Shown here piece by piece: positions 35,052-45,048 of a stretch of DNA of 64,000 nucleotides. The notes beneath the pieces are model-generated. The model saw nothing but the letters and a program-made list of their open reading frames with translations, did no database searches and was not told where the DNA came from. Position 1 is the stretch's first letter, and every line of letters begins with the position of its first letter. The stretch covers positions 186,001 to 250,000 of the forward strand of contig JAOAPY010000030.1 of NCBI GenBank assembly GCA_025463135.1. The letters run 5' to 3'. The stretch comes from Acidobacteriota bacterium (GTDB lineage: Bacteria > Acidobacteriota > Blastocatellia > Pyrinomonadales > Pyrinomonadaceae). The translations under genes were made by a program, and so were the position numbers.

Positions 35052-35459
35052 ATGTCGCAGACGTTAGAAGCATTAGGCATGGTCGAAACCAAAGGCTTCG
35101 TGGGTGCGGTCGAGGCAGCCGACGCCATGGTAAAAGCCGCCAACGTTCAACTCTTGGGCAAAGAGTATATCGGCGCCGGCTACGTGACGATCTTTGTCCG
35201 TGGCGACGTGGGCGCAGTCAAGGCTGCAACTGACGCAGGCGCGGCAGCGGCCCGGCGAGTCGGCGAGCTAATCAGCGTGCACGTTATTCCGCGGCCGCAT
35301 ATCGAAGTCGAACGTGTGTTACCGGTCAACGGACGTACGGGCCTCAGCCCCGATGAGCGCAGTTTGCAGGGCGGCGCGCGCGGACAACTTGGTCAGGGCG
35401 AACAAGGACGCACTTTGCCGGCCGGGGCGCGTGATGCAGCTAAAGATCGGGCGAGATAA
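35052..35459 (+). CDS. BMC-H bacterial microcompartment shell protein (hexamer), copy 1
   Basis: 135 residues. A single BMC domain ([26 protein letters not shown] ... [19 protein letters not shown] ... VHVIPRPH) covers residues 5-85. In PduA-type shells the central pore is lined by K-I-G-S-G; here the same loop is YIGAG. A polar Gly/Gln/Arg-rich C-terminal tail of about 45 residues is longer than usual. It tiles the facets of a protein organelle. GGAGACCGAG precedes the ATG. It is the first gene of a plus-strand run with aldehyde dehydrogenase, BMC-P, ACT and PFL-family genes. Confidence 0.95.
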
Positions 35460-35489: not shown

Positions 35490-35585
35490 TTGAGCTTGGT
35501 TCTTTCTCCTTTGCAATGGCGTCGCGGCTTTCCAGCTTCCCGCGCTAGGAGCGAAGAACAAAGTACAAAGAACCAGGATCGCAGC
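35490..35585. repeat. Inverted short-repeat spacer between BMC-H and aldehyde dehydrogenase
   Basis: CTTGGTTCTTTCTCCTTTG near 35492 is mirrored by ACAAAGTACAAAGAACCAGG near 35558. An AAGAAC/AAAGTAC run of near-heptad units lies on the right side. The spacer probably folds in the message between the two genes. Confidence 0.55.
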
Positions 35586-35624
35586 TCAATTGAAAAAATT
35601 ATCGAGAACGTTGGGAGCGGGATC

Positions 35625-37460
35625 ATGTCTGTAGATAAAGACCTTATTTCTGTGCAGCAGGCGCGGGATCTGGTTGAAGCCGCACACAAGGCGCAGACTG
35701 AGCTGGCACGTTTCGATCAAGCCAGGGTTGATCGCATCTGCGAGGCGATGGCCAAAGCCGCCCTGCGAGAAGCCGCGCGGTTGGGTGCGCTGGCGGTTGA
35801 AGAAACCGGATATGGCGTTCCCGCTGATAAGCAGGAAAAGAACCGCTTTGCGGCCGAGGATGTTTGGAACTATTTTCGCGGACTGCGCACTGTCGGCGTG
35901 GTCTCGGAAACAAAAGACGTGGTCGAGATCGCCAGCCCCAGAGGCGTCGTCGCCGGCATCATTCCTTCCACTAATCCGACATCCACTGCAATATTCAAAG
36001 TTCTGATAGCGATCAAGTCGCGCAACGCGATTGTTCTTTCGCCGCATCCGTCTGCGGCCCGCTGTATCAACGAAGCAGTTCGCGTCATGCGTGAGGCAGC
36101 CATTAAGGAAGGATTGCCCGCGGATGCCATCGCCTGCATGACGACCGCTACGATTGAAGGCACCGAAGCCCTGATGAAGCACAAGCAAACGGCTGTCATC
36201 TTGGCGACGGGCGGCATTGGTCTGGTGCGGGCCGCTTACTCATCCGGTAAGCCGGCGTTTGGTGTTGGACCCGGTAACGTACCTGTCTTCATCGAAAGAA
36301 GCGCTGATGTTCCCAAAGCCGTGCAGGATATTTTGACAGGCAAGTGTTTCGACAACGGAACCATCTGCGCTTCAGAGCAGGCGGTCGTAGTGGATGCTCC
36401 GATTGAACAAGCAGTACGCGAACAGTTCAGGCTTCAGGGCGCACACTTCGTGTCGGCCGCAGATGCTGAGAAGTTGGGCAAGATCGTGGCTACGCCGCAG
36501 CGCTCGTTGAATCCAGCGATCGTGGGACGGTCCGTAGACGTCATCGCGAACATGGCCGGTATCAGCGTGCCGCCGGGCACTCGGTGTCTGATGGCCGATG
36601 TGGGTGGGGTCGGACGCGACTTTCCCCTGTCGATGGAAAAACTTTCACCTATCCTGGCCTTCTATGTAGTGGATGGGCTCGAGCGCGGCGCCGCACGTTG
36701 CTTTGAAATTCTGCGCTACGGTGGTATGGGCCACACGGCCGGCATTCACACGCGTTCACGCGAAGCCGCGGTAAGGTTTGGTGGCGAGATGCCGGCCTCG
36801 CGGGTAACCGTCAACACGCCGACAACGCATGGGGCCATTGGCTTTTCCACCGCACTGCCGCCGTCGATGACGCTGGGTTGTGGTTCATGGGGTGGCAACG
36901 TGACTTCTGACAATGTCTCGCCGCTTCATTTGATGGATATCAAGCGCGTCGCTTTTGAGACGCGACCGGTGAAGAGTGTTCGTCCGGCAGTGGCAACTTC
37001 AGCGGTTAGTGCCGCGAAGGCGCCGCCGACTTCACAGCGAGCGCCGGTAACGGCAGCCGCTGGAAAAATTGGGCGGGACGAGATCGCGGCCATCGTCGAT
37101 CGCTTTCTTGCGGGTCGCCGTGAAGAAGACACGGCTCAAGCACCACGGCAGTCAGCAGAGATAGAAGCCGGCAGCATGGATACAGGCGCCTTTAACCCCG
37201 CTCAGAGTTCATCAGCTTCGATGTCCTCAAATCGCTCGGCACCGGCAGGGAATGGTTCAGCGAGCGGCGAGGCTTCGACAAAGCCACAGCGTCCGGCGGA
37301 TTTTCCTACCAACGGCCGCACGGCGATCGATTTCGTCAGTGAAGATGACGTACGTAGGGCCATGCAAAAGGGCGAAAAGATTTACGTGAATGCCCGCACC
37401 ATAATTACGCCGGCAGCGCGGGACATGGGTGAACCGGCGGAAGTTTTTGCGAAAGTGTAA
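35625..37460 (+). CDS. BMC-associated acylating-type aldehyde dehydrogenase with long C-terminal extension
   Basis: About 611 residues. Residues 1-450 form a PduP/EutE-like CoA-acylating aldehyde dehydrogenase: [28 protein letters not shown], catalytic Cys248 in [11 protein letters not shown], and [11 protein letters not shown]. It would convert an aldehyde to acyl-CoA inside the shell. Normal members end near residue 460. Here an Ala/Pro linker leads to an amphipathic helix ([18 protein letters not shown]), a second Ser-rich linker, and a final 45 residues ([30 protein letters not shown]) resembling the short start of EutQ. The first helix is a candidate encapsulation peptide. GGGAGCGGGATC precedes the ATG; an open frame back to 35490 crosses repeat DNA and is unlikely to be coding. 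Confidence 0.92.
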
Positions 37461-37606: not shown

Positions 37607-37936
37607 ATGTTCTTAGGTAAAGTTGTCGGTACAGTTTGGTCTACGAAGAAGTCGCCTGATCTCGAAGGCGTCCGTTTTTTGATTGTGCATCCCTTCGATC
37701 TGGATAAAGAACCAAACAAAAGTATCGTGGTTGTGGCTGATCGGCTGGGAGCGGGAGCCGGCGAGACCGTCATGTGCGCTTTCGGGAAGGCGGCACGCAC
37801 AGCAATTGGTAATCAGGACATGGCTATCGAGGCGGCCGTGGTCGGCATTGTCGACCGTGTCGACCTGGCCGAAACCGTGTCAGAAGAATTGCGCGCGTCA
37901 GCGCGCGAATTGGCACGGGACAATGGGCGGGGCTGA
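37607..37936 (+). CDS. BMC-P microcompartment vertex protein (EutN/CcmL family)
   Basis: 109 residues, MFLGKVVGTVWSTKKSPDLEGVRFLIVHPFD, the standard EutN/CcmL start, with LGAGAGETVMCAFGKAAR (G-A-G-x-G-E-x-V turn) and AAVVGIVDRVD at the end. Pentamers of this fold cap the vertices of the icosahedral shell. It is the only BMC-P in the window, and its presence with BMC-H makes a closed compartment possible. No strong ribosome binding site is visible because repeat DNA abuts the ATG. Confidence 0.94.
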   Translation: MFLGKVVGTVWSTKKSPDLEGVRFLIVHPFDLDKEPNKSIVVVADRLGAGAGETVMCAFGKAARTAIGNQDMAIEAAVVGIVDRVDLAETVSEELRASARELARDNGRG

Positions 37937-38031: not shown

Positions 38032-38508
38032 ATGGCCAATGAAGAGTTGATTTACAAGATCACGCGTGCTGTGTATGGACGTTTGGGCATGGGGGCGGAC
38101 GAACAAACGGTTGAACAGTTGGTGACGGAAGTCTATCGCGAGATTGAGCCCTATCTTTCTGATAACGGCAGCTCCCCACGAAACCCTCAAGGACCAATGC
38201 ATACAGTGCCGACTGATTCGCGCGGCGAAGGCTCGTCCGATCGGATGGTAATTTCTGTGTTCGGAGTGGACCACCCCGGGATTGTAGCCGGCGTCGCGCA
38301 AATTCTGGCGGAGGCCGATTGCAGCATCGTGGACATTAACCAAACAGTGGTGCAGGGAAAGTTCGCCATGGTTATCATCGGCGACACCTTGCGTGCGCGG
38401 GAAAGTGCCTCGGAGCTCAAAGAACGGCTGAGACGCGAAGGCGAAAAGCTCGGCGTCCGCATTTATGCGCAGCGCGAAGATCTATTTAATGCGATGCACC
38501 GGATTTGA
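38032..38508 (+). CDS. UPF0237-family ACT-domain protein with N-terminal extension
   Basis: 158 residues. Residues 72-158 are a complete UPF0237 ACT domain (VISVFGVDHPGIVAGVAQIL, IVDINQTVVQGKFAMVIIGD, ending REDLFNAMHRI, the family's usual C-terminus). Ordinary members are about 90 residues and consist of this domain alone. Here 70 residues are added in front: two amphipathic helices (ELIYKITRAVYGRLG; VEQLVTEVYREIEPYL) and a flexible Ser/Pro/Gly linker. That layout, short helix plus linker, is that of BMC encapsulation peptides. ACT domains bind small ligands such as amino acids. UPF0237 genes usually neighbour UPF0210 (PFL) genes, as here. Confidence 0.88.
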   Translation: MANEELIYKITRAVYGRLGMGADEQTVEQLVTEVYREIEPYLSDNGSSPRNPQGPMHTVPTDSRGEGSSDRMVISVFGVDHPGIVAGVAQILAEADCSIVDINQTVVQGKFAMVIIGDTLRARESASELKERLRREGEKLGVRIYAQREDLFNAMHRI

Positions 38509-38808
38509 ATTTCGGATTGCGGATTTTCCGGAGCAATTTGAGGCTAATCATTCAGATTATCCTGGGAGAAATTTAGCTACGAGGACTAAAAATCCGCAAT
38601 CCGCAATCCGCAATCCGCAATTCGAAATTCTTCCTGCGGACTTGAATCGGATCTGAAATCAAGGATGCGGAGCGGCAAGTTACAAATCCGCAATCCGCAA
38701 TTCGAAATCCGAAATTCTTCTTGCGGACTTGAATCGGATCTGAAATCAAGGATACGGAGCGGCAGTTACAAATCCGCAATCCGCAATTCGAAATCCGAAA
38801 TTCTTCCT
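38509..38808. repeat. Repeat-filled spacer: AATCCGC heptads and two 87-bp direct repeats
   Basis: AATCCGC is repeated four times at 38591-38618, with inverted forms (GGATTGCGGATTT) near 38514. A unit containing GCGGACTTGAATCGGATCTG recurs with a period of 87 bases (starting near 38636 and 38723), each copy ending in AATCCGCAATCCGC. This fills the 300 bases between the ACT and zinc-ribbon genes and runs to within a few bases of the next ATG. Confidence 0.85.
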
Positions 38809-39330
38809 ATGTCTCAACCTGAAATATTTCGTCGTTGTGCGCACTGTGGCGCCTCATCCAAGCCGGGAGAATTGTTCTGTGCCCAATGTGGCCAAGCGCT
38901 GGTGACGGAAAAGATCGAGCAGACGGGAGAGCAAAATTCTTTGACCGAGGAAAGCGATCCAGCGGCGCCCGCGGCAAAGCAACAGGAACAACCCGAGGCA
39001 GCAGATTCTAAGCGGTCTCCAAATCCGATTTTGCAACGCAGTGAGGACGGAATCAATGAAGATGCGGTGCCGTCCTCAAACAAAACCACGGCTGCTGCGG
39101 TTAACGCGACCGTGGGCCAAAATCCCGGGCTGGCGAGTCAGCGGGTCGGCCTTGCCGCCCGCCGTGGGATGGCAGATCGTGGGAAACCGCGCCCGGATAA
39201 GCCGCGTCGTGTTTCCAGCGTCGTTCTAAACGAAGCAGCCTATGATCCGGGTATCCGCTTCATTCTCGTTGTCGGCGTTCTGTTCGTGCTTTTTATCGTA
39301 CTGCTGTTACTTAGTAAATGGATTGTTTAG
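38809..39330 (+). CDS. Zinc-ribbon protein with C-terminal membrane anchor
   Basis: 173 residues. CAHCGASSKPGELFCAQCG (about residues 10-28) is a two-knuckle zinc ribbon. The middle is acidic and low-complexity, then basic (RGKPRPDKPRRVSS, split by the sequence around it). The C-terminus is one hydrophobic helix (FILVVGVLFVLFIVLLLLSKWIV), placing the ribbon in the cytoplasm. No enzymatic motif is present. It is co-directional with the BMC genes, but a role in the compartment is unproven. The open frame extends upstream to 38665 through repeat DNA and is not used. Confidence 0.72.
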   Translation: MSQPEIFRRCAHCGASSKPGELFCAQCGQALVTEKIEQTGEQNSLTEESDPAAPAAKQQEQPEAADSKRSPNPILQRSEDGINEDAVPSSNKTTAAAVNATVGQNPGLASQRVGLAARRGMADRGKPRPDKPRRVSSVVLNEAAYDPGIRFILVVGVLFVLFIVLLLLSKWIV

Positions 39331-39346
39331 CTTTGCAGGTTTCGAA

Positions 39347-39430
39347 TCTCAGTCTCAGTCTCAGATCTCAGATCTCAGATCTCAGATCTCAGATCTCAGA
39401 TCTCAGATCTCAGATCTCAGATCTCAGATC
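39347..39430. repeat. Ten tandem TCAGATC heptads
   Basis: An exact 7-base unit is repeated ten times from 39361 to 39430, preceded by two TCTCAG hexamers. It lies between the zinc-ribbon gene and the PFL-family gene. Such exact repeats should vary in copy number between close relatives. Confidence 0.92.
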
Positions 39431-39508
39431 TGAAACTATAACGACTCTGGTATCTCAAATTAGACTCTCAGATCAACCAATCTGAAATCTGAATTCACCA
39501 ATCGAACC

Positions 39509-40870
39509 ATGGAATATAGTCAAGCCGAAATTCTGCAAACCGTGGCGATGACGGAGATGGAGCACCTCGATGTGCGCACCGTCACGCTTGGTCTCAGTTT
39601 GCTTGACTGCGCCAGCAATTCCATGACGGAAACAGCGGATCGCGCGCGGCAGAAGATTGAACGTGTCGCCGCTCGCCTGGTCCAGACCGTGGACCAGATC
39701 GGCGACGAGATCGGTTTGCGCATTGCCAACAAGCGCATTGCCGTCACGCCTGTTTCGCTGATTACGGAAGGCAGCGCCGGTGATCCCATTCAGGTAGCGC
39801 GGGCCATCGATGAGGCGGCGGCTACGGTGGGCGTGGATTTTCTCGGTGGCTATTCTGCGCTGGTCCCCAAGGCGGCGACGCGAAGCGAAACGGAATTCAT
39901 CGACTCAATTGCGGAAGCCTTAGCCTCAACCCGCCGGCTCTGCTCGTCGGTAAACGTGGCGACCACGCGCGCCGGCATCAATATGGACGCGGTGCGACAA
40001 GTGGGCCGAGTGATAAAGGAAGCCGCCGAGCGAACACGCGACCAGGGTGGACTAGCCTGCGCCAAGTTCGTTTGCTTTGCCAATGCAGTTGAGGACAATC
40101 CATTCATGGCCGGCGCCTTTCACGGCATCGGTGAGGCCGAGGCTGTCATCAATGTCGGCGTGTCAGGTCCCGGCGTCGTTAATAACGCGTTGCGGCATGC
40201 TGATGTAAACCTGCCTTTGCATGAGCTGGCCGAGATTATCAAAAAACTCTCATTCAAGCTGGCGCGCGCCGGCGAGTTGATAGGCAGGGAAGCTGCCCGC
40301 CGGCTTGGTCTTCCCTTTGGCATCATCGATCTATCGTTGGCCCCGACACCGGTGCCCGGCGACTCAGTAGCGGAGATAATCGAGGCGATGGGTTTTGAAC
40401 GGGCCGGCACTCATGGCACAACCGCGGCCCTGGCACTGTTGACGGACGCTGTTAAGAAAGGCGGTGCGATGGCCAGCGGTTCAGTGGGCGGTATGAGCGG
40501 AGCATTCATTCCCGTTTCGGAAGACGCGGCCATGATCGAAGCGGCGAGGGTAGGCGCGCTTTCACTCGATAAGCTGGAGGCCTGGACCAGTGTCTGTTCT
40601 GTAGGCATCGATATGGTGGCGGTGCCCGGCTCGACCTCCGCGGAGACAATCTCTGCAATCATCGCCGACGAGATGGCCATCGGCGTCATGAATAACAAGA
40701 CCACGGCCGTTCGCATTATTCCTGTGCCTGGGCGCGGAGTCGGCGAGATGGTCGAGTTTGGCGGTTTGCTGGGCAGCGCGCCAATCATGGCGGTCAATGC
40801 TTTTTCTTCAACAGCATTCATCCGCCGCGGCGGCCGCATCCCGGCGCCGATTCACTCACTAAGGAATTGA
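39509..40870 (+). CDS. PFL-family protein (UPF0210/DUF711)
   Basis: 453 residues, full length. The start [28 protein letters not shown] and the later [57 protein letters not shown] and the C-terminus [18 protein letters not shown] are hallmarks of this family. It is named for remote similarity to pyruvate formate-lyase, but no C-terminal glycyl-radical loop or activase is seen. The biochemical activity of the family is not established, to my knowledge. It often pairs with a UPF0237 ACT protein, found here 1 kb upstream. Its place at the end of a shell/aldehyde-dehydrogenase gene run makes it a candidate core enzyme of the compartment. Confidence 0.93.
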
Positions 40871-44724: not shown

Positions 44725-45048
44725 ATGGAAGAAGCACTCGGCATGGTGGAATGCAGGGGACTCGTCGCCATGATTGAAGCGGCGGACGCGATGGTTAAGT
44801 CGGCGAACGTGCGTCTGGTTGGTTGGGAAAAGATCGATGCCGGCCTGGTGACGGCCATCGTTCGCGGCGACGTCGCCGCAGTGCGCAGTGCGGTTGATGC
44901 CGGAGCCGCCGCGGCCAAACGCGTCGGCGAAGTCGTCGCTACTCATGTCATTCCTCGACCCCATGCCGAGGTGGACGCCGGTCTTCCGGTTTTGCACACC
45001 GGTGAGACCACCCGAAAAAAGATCAGCGGTTCGGTACCTTCAAAGTAA
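44725..45048 (+). CDS. BMC-H microcompartment shell protein (hexamer), copy 2
   Basis: 107 residues, one BMC domain ([26 protein letters not shown] ... [26 protein letters not shown] ... HVIPRPH). The pore loop is KIDAG, unlike YIGAG in copy 1, which would place an acidic side chain near the pore. The C-terminal tail is short and basic. AGGAG lies 7 bases before the ATG. It lies 3.9 kb from the PFL-family gene, across the two glycosyltransferase genes, and may be a mobile or duplicated part of the locus. Confidence 0.95.

Follow-up and report, generated by a model that had tools for sequence, protein, structure and literature searches.

The window (the whole analysed stretch of 64,000 nucleotides from a Pyrinomonadaceae bacterium) carries shell genes of a bacterial microcompartment (BMC) and a gene for a UPF0237-type ACT protein. 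The genes are arranged in the order BMC-H, aldehyde dehydrogenase (ALDH), BMC-P4, ACT protein, zinc-ribbon protein, DUF711 protein, and BMC-H (Table 1). The listed ORFs of ALDH and the second BMC-H start at 35490 and 44617, and their ATG starts at 35622 and 44725 are inferred. The genome's main BMC locus, on contig C31, encodes BMC-H, a BMC-P triplet from which BMC-P4 is distinct, and a class II aldolase whose tail resembles an encapsulation peptide (EP). According to PMC8217296, the ACI-type BMC of Acidobacteria combines, at one locus, a class II aldolase with a C-terminal tail, a BMC-P triplet and BMC-H, and its AldDh is encoded on a separate satellite. In each of these components, the C31 locus and the window satellite correspond to this type. 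Beyond what is described there, the window satellite encodes the extended ACT protein, DUF711 and a fourth BMC-P; neither ACT nor DUF711 is mentioned in the main text of that BMC catalogue.

Table 1. Features of the satellite locus, with positions in the window.
Feature	Position	Strand	Evidence
BMC-H hexamer shell protein	35052..35459	+	PF00936, 100.6 bits
CoA-acylating aldehyde dehydrogenase with C-terminal EP-like tail	35622..37460	+	PF00171, TIGR02518-like
BMC-P pentamer of a distinct fourth type (BMC-P4), adjoining the ACT gene	37607..37936	+	PF03319; orthologues
UPF0237-type ACT protein with N-terminal extension, 158 aa	38032..38508	+	ORF; NF001220, PF13740; Foldseek best match
Two-helix N-terminal mini-domain, residues 1–43, proposed shell-docking/targeting module	38032..38160	+	AlphaFold2; conservation
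Variable Ser/Pro/Gly/Ala linker, residues 44–70	38161..38241	+	Low pLDDT; identity 0.18
ACT domain, residues 71–158	38242..38505	+	NF001220 match; pLDDT about 95
DUF711/UPF0210 protein, the usual UPF0237 partner, without extension	39509..40870	+	NF003700; PDB 2ha9
Second BMC-H shell protein	44725..45048	+	PF00936, 104 bits

An in-frame TAA is present two codons 5' of the ATG of the ACT gene, and thus the start cannot be further upstream. The model NF001220 (PRK00194) matches the ORF with 93.5 bits (cut-off 74) from position 3 to 90 of 90, at residues 71–158. This whole-profile match places the protein among the UPF0237 ACT proteins. PF13740 matches the ACT domain with 52.3 bits. The best Foldseek match is PDB 1zpv, a 91-aa ACT protein (84 columns). 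It is aligned to residues 71–158 only, which indicates that about 70 N-terminal residues are extra. The ACT domain, the conserved C-terminus and the DUF711/UPF0210 neighbourhood are shared with UPF0237/PRK00194 proteins such as 1zpv, but the known members are about 90 aa long and do not have the extension; outside Acidobacteriota, this comparison covered 1zpv and the NCBIfam model of 90 positions.

AlphaFold2 models based on 28 homologues contain a helix at residues 2–18, a second helix at residues 24–43, a disordered region at residues 45–63 (pLDDT <50) and the ACT fold. Residues 1–43 modelled alone give a confident two-helix unit (pLDDT 91). The original prediction, made for 38032–38250 (residues 1–73), was that about 70 additional residues with helices and a linker precede an intact ACT domain. 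This architecture is borne out by the profiles, 1zpv and AlphaFold2.

The two-helix mini-domain is conserved in all 28 homologues from the same class. Their mean pairwise identity is 0.79 in helix 1, 0.64 in helix 2, 0.73 in the ACT domain and 0.18 in the linker. The helices are conserved about as well as the ACT domain, and therefore the extension is not a product of chance. In the deeper families f10, f20 and f36, the two-helix pattern is present and much diverged. Helix 2 is strongly amphipathic and helix 1 moderately so: their hydrophobic moments are at the 99th and 93rd percentiles (medians over homologues), and at percentiles 98.7 and 84.2 in the window's own protein. The hydrophobic positions of the extension are 6/7, 10, 14/15 and 18, followed by 27, 30/31, 34/35 and 38. 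They fit the alternating-pair pattern described for EPs (PMC12108088). A Foldseek search with the isolated mini-domain gave nothing significant in the PDB. Among the proteins of 60 genomes, no other carrier of the extension was seen beyond one match at E 0.029. A weak match of the extension in G028:C701 falls in a protein read as XdhC-like, and was treated as chance.

Among 396 genomes of Acidobacteriota, UPF0237-type ACT proteins are seen in 29, and BMC-domain genes in 172. All 27 extended ACT proteins are from genomes with BMC genes. The two unextended ones, from G353 and G375 of one genus, are both from genomes without BMC genes. The hypergeometric p for the co-occurrence of the extension with BMC is about 5e-11 if the genomes are independent; because the genomes are related, the p-values here overstate the evidence, and the extension may have arisen once, in which case the genomes are not independent. 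The extension is absent from the homologues without compartments, which are few and from one genus, and 1zpv does not have it either. It had been proposed that the extension should track with shell genes, and that an extended UPF0237 protein in a BMC-free genome would speak against the idea. No such case was found among the 396 genomes of Acidobacteriota, where the tracking is strict.

The only sampling of other phyla was a scan of 84,980 species; its motif was that of the ACT type in the window and is biased to the FAM-type ACT. The scan detected 62 loci, each matching nearly the whole query, extension included. Based on their labels, all are acidobacterial except two records: one is labelled Actinomycetota, with a contig name that says Acidobacteria, and the other Aminicenantes. 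At 51 of the 62 loci, the DNA retrieved around ACT contains a shell gene, with the genes arranged as BMC-H, ALDH, (BMC-P4), ACT and DUF711. The link of the extension to the shell is well supported.

BMC-P4 shows a similar distribution. Among 60 relatives, 28 with the extended ACT and 32 without it, a BMC-P4 orthologue (71–86% identity) is seen in 27 of the former and none of the latter, in which the best match is below 48%. The association corresponds to a Fisher p of about 3e-16 if the genomes are independent. In two genomes (G038 and G042), the BMC-P4 and ACT genes are on different contigs and yet both present, indicating that close linkage alone is no explanation for their co-inheritance. 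Both genes are absent from a clade of Pyrinomonadaceae, some f6 genomes and f2. In the ALDH tree, the sampled ACT-negative Pyrinomonadaceae form one clade, and the absences in f6 and f2 are separate. This grouping implies that a few joint losses, not 32, are behind the count. BMC-P4 as a universal partner was ruled out, since f8, f10, f20 and f36 have extended ACT proteins without BMC-P4. The extension is thus not a partner of BMC-P4 only.

The extension was originally likened to an EP. The EPs of metabolosome cargo such as PduP, PduD and PduL consist of a terminal amphipathic helix and a variable disordered linker attached to a folded protein (PMC12108088, PMC12339742, PMC11157265). The AlphaFold2 models of the ACT protein likewise have terminal helices and a disordered linker before the folded domain, and, as with these EPs, the extension is present in compartment-associated homologues only. 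Such architecture and phylogenetic pattern are those that first revealed the Pdu signal sequences (PMC12108088). However, known EPs are single helices of 15–20 aa with poorly conserved sequences (PMC12339742, PMC12108088), whereas the extension has two helices in about 40 strongly conserved residues. Its carrier is a putative regulatory ACT protein and not an enzyme. PduM and PduB also have signal sequences on non-enzyme components (PMC12108088); they are other proteins, and the ACT extension is longer and more conserved.

No likeness to the EPs of the same organelle was seen: PSSMs from the aldolase and ALDH tails score the ACT protein of the window at the 56th and 10th percentiles of background N-termini, respectively, which is weak evidence, EPs being poorly conserved. 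An apparent resemblance to the aldolase tail, EEL(I/V)..(I/L)T.A(V/M), was dropped because the tail PSSMs gave no signal above background. PduE is a known example of an EP-like extension that does not act in targeting (PMC12108088). The comparison with EPs therefore holds for the helix-linker architecture and the co-occurrence with BMC, and fails for the conserved two-helix unit and the likeness to the organelle's own tails. As the design is EP-like but the unit has two conserved helices unlike those tails, the extension is called a probable BMC docking module rather than a typical EP. The most likely interpretation is a BMC targeting module of a new variety.

The gene order differs among lineages. 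Most Pyrinomonadaceae have BMC-H, ALDH, BMC-P4, ACT, DUF711 and BMC-H in this order. Pyrinomonas methylaliphatogenes K22 also carries the locus (L171). In f5, f6 and f8, ACT is encoded within or close to the shell genes, and DUF711 is elsewhere or outside the fetched DNA. The order in f20 is BMC-H, ALDH, ACT and DUF711, and the ALDH and ACT genes are only 2 nt apart. This proximity would fit an extension that acts as an interaction module not with the shell but with a cargo enzyme, such as the upstream-encoded ALDH, or in self-assembly of the ACT protein. The extension would then follow BMC genes because its partner is a BMC cargo. The predicted two-helix unit, with its conserved polar positions T11, D23 and E28, is consistent with such a module, and EPs reportedly also make cargo proteins associate with one another (PMC12339742). 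Still, this reading is unlikely: in Blastocatellia the co-inheritance is with BMC-P4 and not with ALDH, and genomes with BMC-H and ALDH but without BMC-P4 also do not have ACT.

The DUF711 protein of the window matches NF003700 over its whole length (688.9 bits) and PDB 2ha9 (SP0239) with an E-value of 9.6e-156. The genomes of f3, f10 and f36 have shell genes, but none adjoins the ACT gene, which speaks against a docking role. Where shell genes are missing locally in f10 and f36, only the ACT-DUF711 pair is retained. This observation and a possible single origin would be compatible with an extension that is an intramolecular element, or one that binds DUF711, and changes ACT/DUF711 assembly, with the BMC link due to one ancestral event. 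We consider this improbable. The unextended ACT genes of G353 and G375 are directly upstream of DUF711, indicating that the extension is not needed for the pairing. Extended ACT proteins are present in G040, G041 and G058 with DUF711 far away, and the disordered linker also argues against such an element.

It is very improbable that the BMC link is incidental, with the extension being a lineage trait of a single ACT subfamily whose host families have retained BMCs by coincidence: all listed genomes of f10, f20 and f36 have BMC genes, so that presence and absence are inseparable within those families, but genus g39 (in the family of G038 and G042) has neither BMC nor ACT, the joint absence of BMC-P4 and ACT is repeated elsewhere, and the ACT gene is located inside shell operons.

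Our preferred reading, to which we give a probability of roughly two in three, is that the extension is a docking or targeting module that links ACT with the ACI-type BMC. The two short helices on the disordered tether would attach the protein to the compartment, probably in the lumen rather than on the outer side. EPs are thought to bind the grooves between hexamers at the luminal side (PMC11157265). The best guess for the dock is a hydrophobic groove between hexamers on the shell's inner face, or else the vertex formed by the co-inherited BMC-P4. The ACT dimer might be a ligand-sensing subunit acting on DUF711, and the untagged DUF711 would probably be brought in together with the ACT protein by piggy-back. 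It can be further speculated that the two-helix unit represents a new class of docking module, placing a ligand-sensing ACT protein at BMC-P4 vertices for control of the BMC or an enclosed DUF711 enzyme by a metabolite; this is rather unlikely.

The ACI microcompartment, one of the major BMC types in soil Acidobacteria, has no known substrate, and the widespread UPF0237 and DUF711 proteins have no known function. The shell-linked tag connects the three. The ACT protein might be a small-molecule sensor in or on the organelle. No case of BMC regulation by an ACT domain came up in the literature searched.

Several other features of these loci were observed. The ALDH tail contains an EP-like helix (17 residues) and, as a second element, a conserved motif at the C-terminus (15 residues, then ....TIITPAARD). 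The zinc-ribbon protein, encoded at 38665–39330, has a C-terminal hydrophobic segment and is a candidate membrane tether. Its relatives are present in the ACI satellite locus even without BMC-P4, ACT and DUF711 (L098–L100). Tandem repeats are seen between ACT and DUF711 at 38591–38808 and 39346–39431, with an 87-bp unit (2.4 copies) and the heptamers AATCCGC and ATCTCAG. Rfam gave no RNA at the ACT locus, and no match for these repeats. In f8, an uncharacterised protein of 428–474 aa is encoded between ALDH and ACT (L097:9911–11197 and L204:8507–9931). In f36 (L195 and L197), the ACT-DUF711 pair is directly 3' of an ORF of approximately 1,060–1,160 aa, away from the shell genes.
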